64,000 nt of DNA. Origin: Burkholderiales bacterium (lineage in GTDB: Bacteria > Pseudomonadota > Gammaproteobacteria > Burkholderiales > Burkholderiaceae_C). The notes below the pieces were generated by a model, which did no database searches, was not told where the DNA came from, and saw only the letters and a list, made by a program, of their open reading frames with translations. Both the position numbers and the translations under genes were made by a program. This document shows positions 38,558 through 44,274 of the stretch, piece by piece (within the stretch, counting starts at the first letter, position 1; each line of letters starts with the position of its first letter). Location of the stretch: positions 1 through 64,000 of the forward strand of contig JAGWTU010000021.1 of the NCBI GenBank assembly GCA_028868825.1, given 5' to 3'.

Positions 38558-39712
38558 TCAGGCGGCCAGCGCGCCGGCGACGCGCACGACGAACCAGACC
38601 GACGCGATCGCGATCGCCGCGCCCGATCCGGCGCCGACGACCCAGCGCCGGTAGCCCCGCCTGCCGCGCAGCGCGTAGAGCAGGGTCACCGCCACCGCGA
38701 CGATCGCGAGCTGCCCGAGTTCGAGCCCGACGTTGAATTCGAGCAGGGCGCGCACGAACAGGCCCGTAGGCAGGTCAAGCTCGCTCAGGGCGCCGGCAAA
38801 GCCGAATCCATGGACGAGCCCGAAGGCGAAGGCCGCGCCGGCGCGCGGCAGCGGCAGCACCGGGTGCAGATTGTCGATCGCCGTGATGATGATCGTGGCG
38901 GCGATCGCCGGCTCGATGATCCCCGGCGGCAGCGCGACCCAATGCATGGCGGCCAGGCCCAGCGTCAGCGTGTGCGCGACGGTGAAGGCGCTGACGATGC
39001 CGGCCACCGGAACGACGGCCTCGACCAGGCGCGGCACCGGCGCTATCCCCTGCGGCGTGCGCCGCAGCACGGCCGGCAGCAGCAGGCACAGCAGGAACAG
39101 GATGTGGTCGTAACCGCCCAGGATATGGGCCATGCCCTGGCGCAGGAAGTCCCAGGCCGAGGGCGTCGCCGCGGCGCCGGTGAAATGCGCCGGGTCGAGC
39201 AGCAGGACTTCGGTCGGCCGGCCGTGGCGGCCATCCTTGCCGTCGTCGCGGTCGATGCGGGCGATGCCGCGGTGCGTCGGATCGATCTCGCGCATCAGGC
39301 CGTAGCGGATCACCGGCTGCCGCGCCAGCGTGCACGGCGAGCTCAGCTCGATCACGGCATAGGCGCCGTCGCTGCGCCGCTCCAGCGCATGACCGGTGGC
39401 CTTGAGCGGACAGCCGTCGATGCGCAGCCGCGGCAGCGCATAGGCGTCGATGCGCGGCCACGCGGCGCGTACCTCGCCCCAGGTGATGCGGCCGTCGTCG
39501 TCGCGGTCGATGTCGATCGCCGCATCGAGGTCGCGCAGCGCGATGTCCCAGCGCAGCGTCGTGAGGCCGGCGCGGGCGTCGATCTGCAGGTAGGCGTCGC
39601 TGGACTTGTGCGCCTGCGCCGGTGGCGCGGCGGCGAGCAGCAGCAGCGTCGATCCCAGCGAGAGCAGCGACGCGCAGGCGCGGCGCCAGCGTGATACATC
39701 AAAGCAGCGCAT
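38558..39712 (-). CDS. HupE/UreJ-family membrane protein with EF-hand-like loop
   Basis: 384 aa from ATG 39712; 39727 is also possible. A signal peptide (LLSLGSTLLLLAAAPPAQA) is followed by a periplasmic part with the calcium-binding-like loop DIDRDDDGRITWGEV (about residues 67-81). About six TMs follow, with the family motifs GMAHILGGYDHILFLLCLLL, FTVAHTLTLGLA and GLVHGFGFAGAL. HupE/UreJ proteins move Ni2+ or Co2+; this longer subfamily (HupE_UreJ_2) has no proven substrate. It overlaps the TPR gene and is last in the DUF4331 operon. Confidence 0.88.
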   Translation of the reverse strand: MRCFDVSRWRRACASLLSLGSTLLLLAAAPPAQAHKSSDAYLQIDARAGLTTLRWDIALRDLDAAIDIDRDDDGRITWGEVRAAWPRIDAYALPRLRIDGCPLKATGHALERRSDGAYAVIELSSPCTLARQPVIRYGLMREIDPTHRGIARIDRDDGKDGRHGRPTEVLLLDPAHFTGAAATPSAWDFLRQGMAHILGGYDHILFLLCLLLPAVLRRTPQGIAPVPRLVEAVVPVAGIVSAFTVAHTLTLGLAAMHWVALPPGIIEPAIAATIIITAIDNLHPVLPLPRAGAAFAFGLVHGFGFAGALSELDLPTGLFVRALLEFNVGLELGQLAIVAVAVTLLYALRGRRGYRRWVVGAGSGAAIAIASVWFVVRVAGALAA

Positions 39713-40862
39713 CGATGCGGTGGTCATGCAGATTCATCCGGTTGACGAGTGAGCGCGCCTCGCCCAGCGCGGCGGGGCTGGCGGCGGCGCGCGCGGCGCG
39801 TGCGAGCACGAGGAGGTCCAGCGGCTCGCGCTGGTGCTGCACGTCGCCGCGGGCCAGTGCCAGCGCGAGGTCGGCGCGATGCTCGATCTGCAGCGCGAAC
39901 ATCGCCTGCTCGCGGGCATGGAGCGGGACGGCCTCGGGGCGCAGATTGGCCTGGGCAATGCGTGCGCGCAGCTCCGCCGCATCGGCCGCGGCAGCGGGCG
40001 CGCCGGCGGCGGCACCGGCGATCGCCAGGCGCAGCAGCACGGCGTCGCTGCGCACCTCGCCGGCCAATGCGGCCAGCGCCTCGGCCGGGCGCCGCTCGTC
40101 GATCAGGAAGTCGGCGTAGGCGAGCTTCGTGTAGCCGTCGGCGTCGAGCTCGAGCGCGCGCCGGTAGGCGCGGTCGGCGGCGTCGCCATGGCCGGCGCGC
40201 TGCTCGAGCTCGGCCAGCGTCGTCGTCAGCCAGGCGGCCGCTTCGCGCGGCAGGCCGGGCGCGGCGAGCAGCGCTTGCAGCGTGCGCCGCGCCGCGTCGG
40301 CCTGGCCGCGCAGTCCGGCGTTCTCGGCCAGGCAGGCGCGGGCGTAGAGGTCGGCGCCGAATTCGGGCAAGCGGCGGCAGGCGACGTCGGATGCGTCGTA
40401 GCGACCCTGCACGCGCCGCACCGTCGCCAGCGTCAGCAGCGCCTGGGCGTGGACGGCCGTCGGCGGGCGCGCCGTCAGCCGCTCGAGCAGCTCGGCCGCG
40501 CCGTCGAAATCGTGCAGGTACTGCTGCAGCGTCGCGCGCATCAGCAGCAATTCGGGCGGCATCGTCGCGACATCGGTCCACGGCGCGATTGCCGCCAGTG
40601 CGTGGCCGGCATAGCGCGGGTCGCCGAGCGTGCGCGCGCGCTCGAGGTCGCGCCGCGCGGCGGCCAGCGCGATGCCGGCGTCGCGCGGCGCGGCCTCGAG
40701 CAGCCGCCGCAGGCGCTTGTCCTGCGCCCGGGCGGCGTCGGCCGGCAGCGTCTCGACGACCTCGGCGTCGTCGTGCGGCGTGATCGGCGTCGCCGGCGCG
40801 CGCGCCGCCGCCAGACACAGGGCCGTGAACCCGGCAAGCAGCAGCGGCGCTTTCATCATCAT
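39699..40862 (-). CDS. Exported TPR-like helical repeat protein
   Basis: 387 aa. Three start Mets in a row; a signal peptide LLLAGFTALCLAAARA precedes APATPITP. The rest is alternating Ala/Leu/Arg helices arranged as degenerate tetratricopeptide repeats, for example LLMRATLQQYLHDFDGAAELL, AHAQALLTLATVRRVQGRYD and AAWLTTTLAELEQRAGHGDAADRAYRRALELD. It begins 4 bp downstream of the lipoprotein stop. Likely a periplasmic scaffold; partner unknown. Confidence 0.8.
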   Translation of the reverse strand: MMMKAPLLLAGFTALCLAAARAPATPITPHDDAEVVETLPADAARAQDKRLRRLLEAAPRDAGIALAAARRDLERARTLGDPRYAGHALAAIAPWTDVATMPPELLLMRATLQQYLHDFDGAAELLERLTARPPTAVHAQALLTLATVRRVQGRYDASDVACRRLPEFGADLYARACLAENAGLRGQADAARRTLQALLAAPGLPREAAAWLTTTLAELEQRAGHGDAADRAYRRALELDADGYTKLAYADFLIDERRPAEALAALAGEVRSDAVLLRLAIAGAAAGAPAAAADAAELRARIAQANLRPEAVPLHAREQAMFALQIEHRADLALALARGDVQHQREPLDLLVLARAARAAASPAALGEARSLVNRMNLHDHRIDALL

Positions 40863-40865
40863 CGC

Positions 40866-41144
40866 TCAGCTCACCGGCTCGGGTTCGGTCGTCTCCGAGA
40901 CCGGCGGCGTGACCTGGTCCACGGACACCGGTTCCAGCGCGTCCGCGGGCGCCGCGACGAGGGCCTCGAGATACGCAATCCAGCCCGCAGGCGACGCGCT
41001 GGCCGACGCCGGCACCTCGGCCGTCGGCGGCGGCGGCATCGGCGGCGGCAGCGAGTTCGAGTCGCCGCCGCCGCAACCCGCCAGCGCGAGCACAGCGATG
41101 CCGGCCAGCCCGGCACGCAGGGTCGAAGCAGTGGGCTTGTTCAT
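40866..41144 (-). CDS. Small lipoprotein in the DUF4331 operon
   Basis: 92 aa from ATG 41144. LAGIAVLALAGC gives a lipobox with Cys about residue 22, followed by GGGDSNSLPPPMPPPPTAEV. The rest is low-complexity Pro/Ala/Ser/Glu with one possible helix (AGWIAYLEALVAAPADALEP). No family is recognisable. It starts 15 bp after DUF4331 and ends 4 bp before the TPR gene, so it is an integral part of the operon. Confidence 0.75.
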   Translation of the reverse strand: MNKPTASTLRAGLAGIAVLALAGCGGGDSNSLPPPMPPPPTAEVPASASASPAGWIAYLEALVAAPADALEPVSVDQVTPPVSETTEPEPVS

Positions 41145-41158
41145 GAGGCCCGCCGCCA

Positions 41159-42733
41159 TCACTGCGCGCCCGGCAGCGGCGTGCCGATGTACGGGAACCC
41201 CGGCAGCAGCGGCCCCTGCGCACGCACCTTCGGCCCGGCCTGGTCGACACCGTCGTGCAGCCCGAAGACGGCGGCACCCAGCGGCACGGCGGCCGGGTTG
41301 CAGGCGGCGCCGAAGCCGTAGGTGTTGGCGTTGCCGTTGGCCACGCACAGGCCGCCCATCACGGCGACCAGCGAGATGTCGACGACATCGTCGTTCGGGC
41401 GCCTGCCGTTGGGGTAGCCGGCGAGGTCCTTCGGCGCCGGACCGAGCAGGCCGCCGAGCAGGCCGAGCCGGTTCTGGCTGGCGTACGGCGTCGCCGGGAT
41501 CGCGGTGTTCAGCCGCAGCATCTCCGCCGCCTTCACATGCGCCGGCTGGTTGACGCCCGGAATGCCGGTGAGGAAGGTCGTCACGAGGTCGGTGCGCGGG
41601 TAGTTGGTCGGCGAGATGCCCGGCGCCGCGAGCGCGATCTCGAGCAGCTTGGGCAGCGTCGGGTTGGTGACGTAGGTGGCGAACTGGGCGTCGTCGCGCG
41701 GCTTCGAGGCGTTGAAGCGGTCCTTGTCGTTGAGCCCGATCACGACCTCGTTGACCAGCGGCATGCCCAGCCGTGACACCTGGGTCCAGGCGCCGCCGTC
41801 GAGCTCGGCGCTGTCGTGGCCGCTGGGCGGCTTGCCGTTCATCAGCTTGCCCTGGCGCACGCTGGCCGTCGTCCAGGCGCCGATCACCGGGTCGGCACCG
41901 CCGTTGGCCAGCAGGCAGGACGTCGGCACCTCGAGCGCCAGCGCCGTGACGTTCTTGTCGGCCAGCGAATCGGTGCCGGCGTCGCGGTTGGCGTTGTTGA
42001 GCAGGAAGGCCGCGCTCGGCACGTTCACGAGGTCGAAGATGACGCCCAGGTTGACGGCGAACGGATCCTTGCGCTGGCCGACGAACACGCGGCCCTGGCC
42101 GGCGCAGCCGGGGATGTCGATGGTGTAGACGAACTGCGCCGCGTAGGCGGGGTAATTCGGGATCGTCTTCGTGCCGATGTAATCGACCGGCTTGCCGAAC
42201 ATCGCGCTGCCGCCATGGGTGACGGCGGCGGCACTGCCGCCGCGGCGATCGCCGCGCACGACGCTCAGCGTGTAGCCCTCGGTGACGTTGAGCGTGGCGC
42301 CGCTGGCGTCGGTGACGGGGCCGAACTGCGTCAGCGGAATCGCGACGTTGGCGCCACCGATGGGCAGCGTCTGGCCCTTGGAGAGGTTCTGGAAGCGGAA
42401 CTGGAATGTGAGGTCCTCGGCGCCGTCACCGTTGTTGTCGACATGGATCTCGTAGAGCGCGCGCGGATCGAGCTTGAAATAGTTGGGGCCGCCGTAGGCG
42501 TCCTGCAGCGGCAGGTAATCGGCGATCAGCGTGACATAGCCGCTGCGCCCCGGCTCGTAGCTGTTGAACATGTAGAAATCGGCGCCGTCGACCTTGGGCA
42601 TGCCGGTGATGGCCGGCGCCTCGCGGTGGCTCGAGGCGTGGGCCGGCGCGGCGGCGAGGCCGGCGGCGATGGCGACGAGCGCGGCGGCGGCAGCGATGGC
42701 CGTCTGCGGTTGCAGCGATGAATGCAGTTTCAT
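41159..42733 (-). CDS. DUF4331 secreted protein
   Basis: 524 aa from ATG 42733, preceded by AAGGAAG. The signal peptide ends APAHA before SSHREAPAITGMPKVDGADF, and the S-S-H-R-E-A-P start of the mature chain followed by D-x-x-D-x-Y-x-F/M is the hallmark of DUF4331. The typical later block is RPNDDVVDISLVAVMGG, with a C-terminal FPYIGTPLPG. DUF4331 proteins are extracytoplasmic with no established biochemistry. It is the first gene of a four-gene operon divergent from an ECF sigma gene, with a matching promoter-like element at 42816-42842. Confidence 0.92.
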   Translation of the reverse strand: MKLHSSLQPQTAIAAAAALVAIAAGLAAAPAHASSHREAPAITGMPKVDGADFYMFNSYEPGRSGYVTLIADYLPLQDAYGGPNYFKLDPRALYEIHVDNNGDGAEDLTFQFRFQNLSKGQTLPIGGANVAIPLTQFGPVTDASGATLNVTEGYTLSVVRGDRRGGSAAAVTHGGSAMFGKPVDYIGTKTIPNYPAYAAQFVYTIDIPGCAGQGRVFVGQRKDPFAVNLGVIFDLVNVPSAAFLLNNANRDAGTDSLADKNVTALALEVPTSCLLANGGADPVIGAWTTASVRQGKLMNGKPPSGHDSAELDGGAWTQVSRLGMPLVNEVVIGLNDKDRFNASKPRDDAQFATYVTNPTLPKLLEIALAAPGISPTNYPRTDLVTTFLTGIPGVNQPAHVKAAEMLRLNTAIPATPYASQNRLGLLGGLLGPAPKDLAGYPNGRRPNDDVVDISLVAVMGGLCVANGNANTYGFGAACNPAAVPLGAAVFGLHDGVDQAGPKVRAQGPLLPGFPYIGTPLPGAQ

Positions 42734-42815: not shown

Positions 42816-42842
42816 ATACGCGGGCCGATGCGAATCGGATGC
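42816..42842 (-). promoter_or_regulatory. ECF-type promoter candidate for the DUF4331 operon
   Basis: On the minus strand, GCATCC (42837-42842), a 15-base spacer and GCGTAT (42816-42821), ending 83 bp before the DUF4331 start. The same hexamers with identical spacing occur on the opposite strand at 42866-42892 before the sigma-factor gene. Shared bipartite elements with 15-17 bp spacing are how ECF sigma factors autoregulate and drive targets. Confidence 0.6.
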
Positions 42843-42865
42843 AGGCCGCGTCGCAAATCTGCCGC

Positions 42866-42892
42866 GCATCCAAAACGACGCCGCTCGCGTAC
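42866..42892 (+). promoter_or_regulatory. ECF-type promoter candidate for the sigma/anti-sigma operon
   Basis: GCATCC (42866-42871), 15 bases, then GCGTAC (42887-42892), 54 bp before the sigma-factor start. It differs from the divergent copy only in the last base of the -10-like hexamer. The two -35-like elements are 23 bp apart back to back, so two RNA polymerases could be recruited to either side. Confidence 0.6.
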
Positions 42893-42946: not shown

Positions 42947-43567
42947 ATGCCTGAAAACGATGCCGCCCGCGCCGCGAAAGATGCGCATCAGGCGCGCCTG
43001 GCGCAAGCGCTGGCGCGCACCGCGCTCGGCGACCGCGCGGCCTTTCGCAACCTGTACGAGGCCAGCGCGGCGCCGCTGCTCGGCGTGATCCTGCGCATCC
43101 AGCGCGACCGCGCCGTCGCCGAGGACCTGCTGCAGGAAGTCTTCGTGAAGATCTGGAATGCCGCCGGCAGCTACGACGCGCGCCAGTCGCAGCCGATGAC
43201 CTGGATGACGACGATCGCGCGCCATCGCGCCATCGACAGCCTGCGGCGGGCGCAGGGCGAACCGCGGCGGGTCGTCGCCGGCGACGACGACGAGGACGAC
43301 CCGCTGGACCGCGTCGCCAGCCCCGACCCCGGGCCGCAGGAATTGCTGGCGCAGGCCATCGAGGCGCGCGTGATGCGTGCCTGCCTGGGCGGCCTGAGCA
43401 GTGAACAGCAGCAGAGCCTGGCGCTGGCCTTCTACGACGGGCTCAGCCATGGCGAAGTGGCGAGCCATCTCGGCCAGCCGCTGGGCACGATCAAGAGCTG
43501 GCTGCGCCGCGGCATGCAGGCGCTGCGCAGCTGCCTCGAACAGGCCGGTGTGGCCGCGGCGGCCTGA
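42947..43567 (+). CDS. ECF-family RNA polymerase sigma factor
   Basis: 206 aa from ATG 42947; an in-frame start at 42722 would place coding sequence through the promoter region and is rejected. Region 2: DRAVAEDLLQEVFVKIWNAA and PMTWMTTIARHRAIDSLRRA. Region 4: LGGLSSEQQQSLALAFYDGL, then SHGEVASHLGQPLGTIKSWLRRGMQALR. The linker is acidic (GDDDEDDPLDRV). The overall style is SigK/ECF with RskA partner. It is 2 bp from the anti-sigma gene and divergent from DUF4331. Confidence 0.93.
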   Translation: MPENDAARAAKDAHQARLAQALARTALGDRAAFRNLYEASAAPLLGVILRIQRDRAVAEDLLQEVFVKIWNAAGSYDARQSQPMTWMTTIARHRAIDSLRRAQGEPRRVVAGDDDEDDPLDRVASPDPGPQELLAQAIEARVMRACLGGLSSEQQQSLALAFYDGLSHGEVASHLGQPLGTIKSWLRRGMQALRSCLEQAGVAAAA

Positions 43568-43569
43568 CG

Positions 43570-44274
43570 ATGGACTATTCGCGACCCGAGCGCGCCGACC
43601 GGCTGGCCGGTGAATATGTGCTGGGCACGCTGCGCGGCCCGGCGCGCCGCCGTTTCGAGGAACTGCTGCCGGCGCACCCGGCGCTGCGCCGCGCCGTCGT
43701 GCGCTGGCAGGACGACCTGATGCCGATGGCCGTCGCGGTGGCGCCGGTGCAGCCGGCGGCGGCGACCTGGCGCGGCATCGAGCAGCGGCTGTTCGGCCGC
43801 GCCGAGCGCTGGTGGCAGCGGCTGGCCGTGTGGCGCGGCGCGACGGCGGCCAGCGTCGCCGCGGCGGCGGCATCGCTGGTGCTGCTGCTGACGCTGGCGC
43901 CGGCACCGCCGCGGCCGGGCGAGGCGCCGCTGCTCGTCGTGATGTCGCCGAACCTGAACGCGACGGCGACGCAGGCGCTGCTGCAGAAGGCGCGCTTCGT
44001 CGCCAGCGTCAGCGCCGACGGGCGCGCGCTGGTGCTGCGGCCGCTGGACGCGCTGCCGCTGGAGGCGAGCCGGGCGCTCGAGCTGTGGTCGGTGCCGGCA
44101 AAGGGGGCGCCGCGGTCGCTCGGGCTCGTCGCGGCCGATCGGGCGACGCGGTTGCTGCGGGCGCGGCCGCTGGAGGATACGGCGGCATTCGCTGTCAGCG
44201 TCGAGCCGGCTGGGGGCTCGCCGACAGGGGCGCCGACGGGGCCGATCATCGCGTTGGGCAAGCTCGATAGTTGA
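43570..44274 (+). CDS. RskA-like anti-sigma factor
   Basis: 234 aa. The N-terminal cytoplasmic part (RLAGEYVLGTLRGPARRRFEE) is the anti-sigma domain without zinc-binding Cys/His, as in RskA. A single TM at about 95-115 (AASVAAAAASLVLLLTLA) leads to a periplasmic RskA C-terminal domain with ALELWSVPAKGAPRSLGLV. It would hold the upstream sigma factor at the membrane until an envelope signal triggers release. Cotranscribed with the sigma gene (2-bp gap). Confidence 0.9.
   Translation: MDYSRPERADRLAGEYVLGTLRGPARRRFEELLPAHPALRRAVVRWQDDLMPMAVAVAPVQPAAATWRGIEQRLFGRAERWWQRLAVWRGATAASVAAAAASLVLLLTLAPAPPRPGEAPLLVVMSPNLNATATQALLQKARFVASVSADGRALVLRPLDALPLEASRALELWSVPAKGAPRSLGLVAADRATRLLRARPLEDTAAFAVSVEPAGGSPTGAPTGPIIALGKLDS

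Follow-up and report, generated by a model that had tools for sequence, protein, structure and literature searches.

Two described groups of ECF sigma factors come closest to the system considered here, namely SigK/RskA (ECF18/ECF19), represented by SigK of Mycobacterium tuberculosis and Yersinia enterocolitica, and ECF11 (RpoE/ChrR), represented by PSPTO_1043 of Pseudomonas syringae and RpoE2 of Shewanella oneidensis. The -35 element of the SigK promoter contains CATCC, which would agree with the GCATCC described below and is taken here as a lead only. In M. tuberculosis SigK, two cysteines (Cys133 and Cys183) affect the hold of RskA (PMC7509140). The published ECF11 promoter consensus is TGATCC-N16-CGTA (PMC5507510 Table 3; PMC4336711), and transcript starts have been mapped for promoters of this class (PMC4336711). 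Among the P. syringae targets, PSPTO_4231 reads gcATCC-N16-CGTA and rises 7-fold when the sigma factor is overexpressed (PMC5507510 Table 3). The ECF11 regulons include cfa and glutathione peroxidase (PMC4336711) as well as catalase/peroxidase (PMC5507510).

The window (the whole 64-kb stretch of DNA that was analysed) carries an ECF sigma gene divergent from a DUF4331 gene, and two copies of GCATCC-N15-GCGTA lie back to back and facing outward between them. The features of the locus are as follows:

38558..39727, minus strand: HupE/UreJ-type membrane protein, 389 aa (PF13795, 152.3 bits); overlaps the TPR gene
39699..40862, minus strand: TPR-like protein, 387 aa (TPR_16, 23 bits against a curated cut-off of 32.7)
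40866..41144, minus strand: small putative lipoprotein frame, 92 aa (lipobox-like LAGC, by eye)
41159..42733, minus strand: DUF4331 protein, 524 aa (PF14224, 481.9 bits)
42816..42842, minus strand: predicted ECF promoter of the DUF4331 genes, GCATCC-N15-GCGTAT (-35 GCATCC 42842-42837, N15, -10 GCGTAT 42821-42816), conserved in other genomes
42866..42892, plus strand: predicted ECF promoter of the sigma/anti-sigma genes, GCATCC-N15-GCGTAC (-35 GCATCC 42866-42871, N15, -10 GCGTAC 42887-42892), a sequence match
42947..43567, plus strand: ECF sigma factor, SigK-like, 206 aa (Sigma70_r2 and r4; best solved relative SigK, 4NQW), with Cys146 and Cys196, and with Trp185 and Arg188 in region 4
43570..44274, plus strand: anti-sigma factor, 234 aa (RskA_C, PF10099, 74.5 bits)

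The DUF4331 protein is probably exported, as judged by eye from a signal-peptide-like N-terminus. Its AlphaFold2 model is of middling confidence (pLDDT 70) and gave no Foldseek match in the PDB at E <= 0.001, and we found no mention of DUF4331 in the open-access literature searched. The putative lipoprotein frame lies between the DUF4331 and TPR genes; a slightly longer version of it (40866-41162) has no Pfam match. The TPR-like gene is likely to form one transcription unit with DUF4331. Matches to DUF4331, the TPR-like protein and the HupE/UreJ-type protein, the counterparts of positions 38558-42733 of the window, occur together in 52 of the 80 named loci introduced below (L208-L287), and the sigma/anti-sigma pair is sometimes found downstream of this cluster (e.g., L239, L265 and L282).

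The gap between the two -35 elements is 23 bp, and two polymerases bound so close together may hinder each other. The plus-strand site ends at 42892, with 54 bp between it and the sigma ATG (42947), and the minus-strand site at 42816, with 82 bp between it and the DUF4331 ATG (42733). Both sites lie where the preliminary description of this DNA had placed them, on opposite strands with equal spacing within 77 bp. They are the only matches of GCATCC-N15-GCGTA in the 64-kb window, for which 0.12 matches are expected from shuffles of the window; two matches were reached in one of 100 shuffles. The genome-wide scan that the same description had proposed gave no excess in the own genome, where GCATCC-N14..16-GCGTA has 10 matches and its reversed control 11. 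An extended pattern, YGCATCCR-N14-GCGTA, gave 33 matches in this genome with one mismatch allowed, versus 42 for the control. Its exact matches there are the two sites and a third (C107), which falls within a coding region whose reading frame runs on the opposite strand, and which was taken as chance. No site outside the sigma/DUF4331 locus stands out in this genome. Since the pattern is not enriched there, the case rests on the relatives.

Two sets of DUF4331 loci, with 6 upstream regions in common, were therefore compared. The family set derives from the 150 genomes of the window's GTDB family, 48 of which contain DUF4331, and comprises loci from 29 of these besides the own genome. At a spacing of 15, the upstream regions contain the site exactly in 20 of the 29, with one mismatch in 7 and with two mismatches in 2. 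The named set comprises 80 DUF4331 loci, mostly from Burkholderiales by their titles, of which 79 have a usable upstream region; at N15, 29 are exact, 24 have one mismatch, 13 have two and 13 are worse, while spacings of 11-14 and 16-20 gave 0-2 exact matches each. In the window's genus, the ten DUF4331 genomes comprise 7 exact sites, 2 with one mismatch and 1 with two, and the core ATCC-N16-CGTA precedes DUF4331 in 9 of the 10 (one genus site, L336, has the same sequence as L229 of the named set).

The same core emerged from a search of all 4+4-mer dyads with spacers of 8-24 in the 79 named upstream regions. ATCC-N16-CGTA was the top dyad, present in 60 of the 79 and absent from 19, whereas three draws of 79 control windows had it in 1, 3 and 1. 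Sites with one mismatch or better occur in 53 of the 79 regions, versus 36 of 5724 250-base window-strands taken away from the DUF4331 upstream region. In the named set, 12-208 bp (median 54) separate the upstream site from the DUF4331 start as defined by homology; the site faces the gene in 60 of the 79 regions, and a reverse-facing copy occurs in 12. The spacers of the 29 exact sites share a mean identity of 34%, with no pair above 80%. Because the spacers diverge while the top dyad is kept, it is the hexamers and their spacing that are conserved rather than the whole region. The preliminary description was to be given up if orthologous regions lacked the hexamers; with 29 exact and 24 one-mismatch sites among 79, it withstood this comparison. 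A conserved promoter-like element in front of DUF4331, linked to the SigK-like sigma family, is thus supported by the sequence comparisons, and the control circuit looks genuine and conserved, since the same site precedes DUF4331 in many related bacteria.

The link to the sigma factor is seen in the distribution of the two genes. Taking 51% identity or more as a close sigma orthologue, DUF4331 is found in 31 of the 32 family genomes that have one, versus 17 of the 118 others (Fisher p = 9e-19, uncorrected for relatedness). Among the 24 genomes of the genus, the corresponding figures are 9 of 11 and 1 of 13 (p = 5e-4, likewise uncorrected). Sigma and anti-sigma matches lie within the DUF4331 locus itself in 20 of the 80 named loci, including those of two Moraxellaceae, Agitococcus lubricus and Paraperlucidibaca baekdonensis (L265 and L282). 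The extended pattern was scanned in 47 of the 48 DUF4331-bearing genomes, omitting one with a gene fragment only (G104), and has 171 matches there (0.73 per Mb; reversed control, 8), versus 25 (0.14 per Mb; reversed control, 5) in 47 genomes with neither a DUF4331 match nor a sigma match (E <= 1e-35). Among the DUF4331 genomes, the 30 that have a close sigma orthologue reach 0.88 matches per Mb, and the other 17 reach 0.42. These densities are uncorrected for relatedness, and the genome sets are unmatched in G+C content; moreover, part of the excess is built in, because the pattern was drawn from the sites of the DUF4331 and sigma genes, and those DUF4331 sites account for at least 21 of the 171 matches. 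As a close sigma orthologue is absent from 17 of the 47 DUF4331-bearing genomes, other sigma factors may serve there.

The site in front of the sigma gene is less widely kept. Among 31 family orthologues, 9 have a site (GCATCC/GAATCC-N15-NCGTA) within 320 bp upstream and 22 have none nearby. In five of the 31 a site on the same strand lies 1.6-3.5 kb upstream and could mark where an operon begins; for 17 no site was found, two of these having less than 2 kb of upstream sequence. When all rows at 50% identity or more are considered, 13 of 50 sigma genes have a nearby site with at most one mismatch. The preliminary description had proposed an autoregulated regulon with DUF4331 as its first target: the DUF4331 site is conserved, and with a nearby own site in only 9 of the 31 sigma orthologues, the DUF4331 target appears as the conserved part. 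On these comparisons, autoregulation is likely in the window and seems to be lineage-dependent across the orthologues. DUF3455 matches were observed near the sigma gene in 9 of the 31 regions (L288, L289, L293, L301, L302, L305, L307, L311 and L317), and in L301 and L305 the DUF3455 gene follows a promoter-like site and precedes the sigma gene.

The tight back-to-back layout was also considered as a fixed trait of the sigma-DUF4331 pair and was rejected, as the partner of the reverse-facing site varies. In only a few of the loci compared (the window, L227/L026, L036 and L267) do the sigma gene and DUF4331 diverge with a site pointing to the sigma gene. Where both sites are present, the -35 elements are 11 to 118 bp apart, and gaps of 22-33 bp recur with different partner genes (L223, L227, L230, L237 and L248).

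Like the SigK/RskA systems, the window combines a sigma factor that has only regions 2 and 4 and resembles SigK most with an adjacent RskA-type anti-sigma factor. The NCBIfam SigK model is the best match of the sigma factor, at 160.9 bits and hence below its cut-off of 226. The anti-sigma factor has the RskA_C domain (PF10099) and a membrane helix seen by eye; its sequence has no match among solved structures. Cys146 and Cys196 of the sigma factor align with the two SigK cysteines. All 32 SigK-like sigma factors aligned (that of the window and its 31 family orthologues) have Cys, Glu, Trp, Arg and Cys at positions 146, 170, 185, 188 and 196, respectively. Among more distant sigma matches in 15 picked named loci, 12 keep both cysteines, with Trp185 kept in 10 of these and Arg188 in all 12; five others lack a cysteine or are incomplete in sequence. 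The conserved target sets the window's system apart from the SigK/RskA systems: here it is DUF4331.

The comparison with ECF11 concerns mainly the promoters. The window's sites agree with the published ones in the -10 CGTA, in the spacing and, within the -35, in the ATCC core, and the ECF11 loci of the window's family also carry sites on both strands, like the sigma/DUF4331 locus. The two systems differ in the first two letters of the -35, in the anti-sigma factor (ChrR in ECF11, RskA_C here) and in the five sigma positions named above, which in 11 ECF11 sigma factors are Ala (11), Arg (9), Arg (10), Leu (9) and Leu (10), respectively. The -35 that faces an ECF11 sigma gene starts with TG, as in 9 of 9 sites found within 320 bp upstream of these genes at 11 loci, whereas window-type sites mostly start with GC or GA. 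Before ATCC, the 61 named DUF4331 sites have GC in 38, GA in 18, other letters in five and TG in none; the 27 family sites have GC in 23, GA in 2, AC in 2 and again no TG. The 11 opposite-strand sites in the ECF11 intergenic regions are more mixed (CA 3, TG 2, CG 2, and TA, AA, AG and GA one each). With this mixture, and with PSPTO_4231 reading gcATCC (PMC5507510), the two letters form no proven barrier between the systems.

The preliminary description knew of no described ECF promoter with this -35/-10 pair. In the open-access literature searched, we likewise found GCATCC-N15-GCGTA nowhere given as an ECF consensus, the nearest being the single site at PSPTO_4231. The two letters before ATCC do set it apart; the CGTA, the spacing and the ATCC core are nevertheless those of published ECF11 promoters, of which the pair, judged by its letters, is a near-variant. 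As read from these comparisons, the finding is stronger for DUF4331 than was first proposed, weaker for autoregulation, and its letters are less unprecedented.

The genome of the window also contains an ECF11 system of its own. On contig C77, away from the window's sigma gene, a ChrR above the curated cut-off lies beside an ECF sigma that is 38-39% identical to that of the window. This locus (G000:C77:10500-14000, L329) has back-to-back TGATCC-N15-(A/G)CGTA sites at 2163-2188 and 2206-2231, which point to the ECF11 sigma gene and to a divergent frame resembling, by eye, an FAD oxidoreductase. Three of the four TGATCCR-N15-CGTA matches in the genome lie on this contig within 4 kb. In the family, ChrR is found above the cut-off in 15 of the 150 genomes; 5 of these bear DUF4331, versus 43 of the 135 others, with no association (p = 1).

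We consider it highly probable, reading from the sequence, that the two elements are divergent promoters for polymerase with the neighbouring SigK-like ECF sigma, and that they drive the sigma and DUF4331 operons. The main competitor is that the genome's ECF11 (RpoE/ChrR) sigma reads them instead, here or in part. The common -10, spacing and ATCC core (PMC5507510, PMC4336711), the gcATCC of PSPTO_4231 (PMC5507510), the presence of a ChrR-linked sigma in the same genome, and the mixed opposite-strand letters, one of them GA, speak in its favour. We nonetheless hold it to be improbable: TG precedes ATCC in none of 88 DUF4331 sites (61 named and 27 family, 6 upstream regions being common), as against 9 of 9 ECF11 sigma sites; ChrR shows no association with DUF4331, while 31 of the 32 genomes with the SigK-like sigma bear DUF4331; and the region-4 residues at fixed positions differ from those of the ECF11 sigma factors. 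A transcription-factor operator, or another conserved DNA signal, is a much weaker candidate. Conservation by itself reveals no transcript start, and reverse-facing copies exist in 12 of 79 upstream regions; on the other hand, the motif is non-palindromic, its -35- and -10-like parts keep one spacing and face the gene in 60 of the 79, its distance from the DUF4331 start is 12-208 bp (median 54) in the named set, and it matches a published class of ECF promoters with mapped starts (PMC4336711). A chance match of two short strings, to which the one shuffle in 100 and the lack of enrichment in the own genome might point, is contradicted by the conservation of the site in relatives with a free spacer and can practically be dismissed.

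For divergent promoters served by the SigK-like sigma, we propose the following circuit. At rest, the RskA-type anti-sigma factor would hold the sigma factor, which an extracytoplasmic, probably oxidative, signal would set free. The freed sigma would bind GCATCC as the -35 and CGTA as the -10 on both strands, and would thereby transcribe its own operon, in positive feedback, and the DUF4331, lipoprotein, TPR and HupE genes as another, with transcripts starting just downstream of the sites. The observations on which this scheme stands are the two sites themselves, their conservation upstream of DUF4331 at a fixed spacing with a free spacer, and the joint presence of the sigma gene and DUF4331 across genomes. 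DUF4331, an exported-looking family of unknown function, would thus gain a likely regulator and a context of extracytoplasmic, probably oxidative, stress, and the promoter motif would be precise enough to predict the targets of the SigK-like sigma group from sequence.

The locus is also a natural example with which to study how the promoters of closely related sigma factors stay separate. It is conceivable that two parallel ECF circuits operate in one genome, with promoters alike in the -10, the spacing and four of six -35 letters, and separated mainly by GC/GA versus TG before ATCC and read by the fixed differences in region 4. Tentatively, Trp185, Arg188 and Glu170 on one side and Arg, Leu and Arg on the other might read the two letters, and each circuit might, speculatively, possess its own back-to-back promoter pair. 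The mixed opposite-strand letters at ECF11 loci and the gcATCC target of P. syringae (PMC5507510) lower the odds of such a separation. Such a separation, if true, would mean that two stress responses are largely insulated from each other by two base pairs and a few residues.

A wider set of candidate targets was read from 113 sites in 100 regions of 18 genomes, out of the 171 matches in 47 genomes. The recurrent downstream genes are DUF4331 (14 sites), SigK-like or other ECF sigma factors (6), TonB-dependent receptors (5), alpha/beta hydrolases (5), DUF3455 (5), DUF3034 (3) and glutathione peroxidase (2), with two sites each for catalase, ferritin-like, DUF4394 and DUF4198 proteins. Cyclopropane synthase is preceded by 7 sites, 5 of which lie inside an upstream reading frame. 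Domain names were assigned from one representative per cluster (20 proteins scanned). A small secreted target protein, DUF2282-like by eye, had no Pfam match, so that no family is claimed for it. For 34 of the 113 sites the downstream frame is a singleton and for one there is none, and several clusters of 2-3 lack a clear identity; some of the singleton or small-cluster sites will be chance. A further cluster of 7 sites from 7 genomes (L140, L149, L162, L169, L174, L182 and L185) was set aside as probably coding sequence, since its sites fall within long reading frames and the spacer is near-constant in most of them; such recurrence of a pattern in coding frames is a caution for pattern scans. 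As judged from the predicted genes, these targets suggest a response to oxidative and extracytoplasmic stress, similar to that of ECF11.

Targets seen once include a ChrR-type cupin, a molybdopterin oxidoreductase, a nickel transporter, an AhpC/TSA protein and cytochrome P460; these single cases are tentative, because the choice of each downstream frame relied on a simple reading-frame score. The short ChrR-type cupin frame (PF12973) is preceded by a GCATCC-type site (L191, G007:C1:632400-636400), and possibly represents a link between the two ECF circuits.
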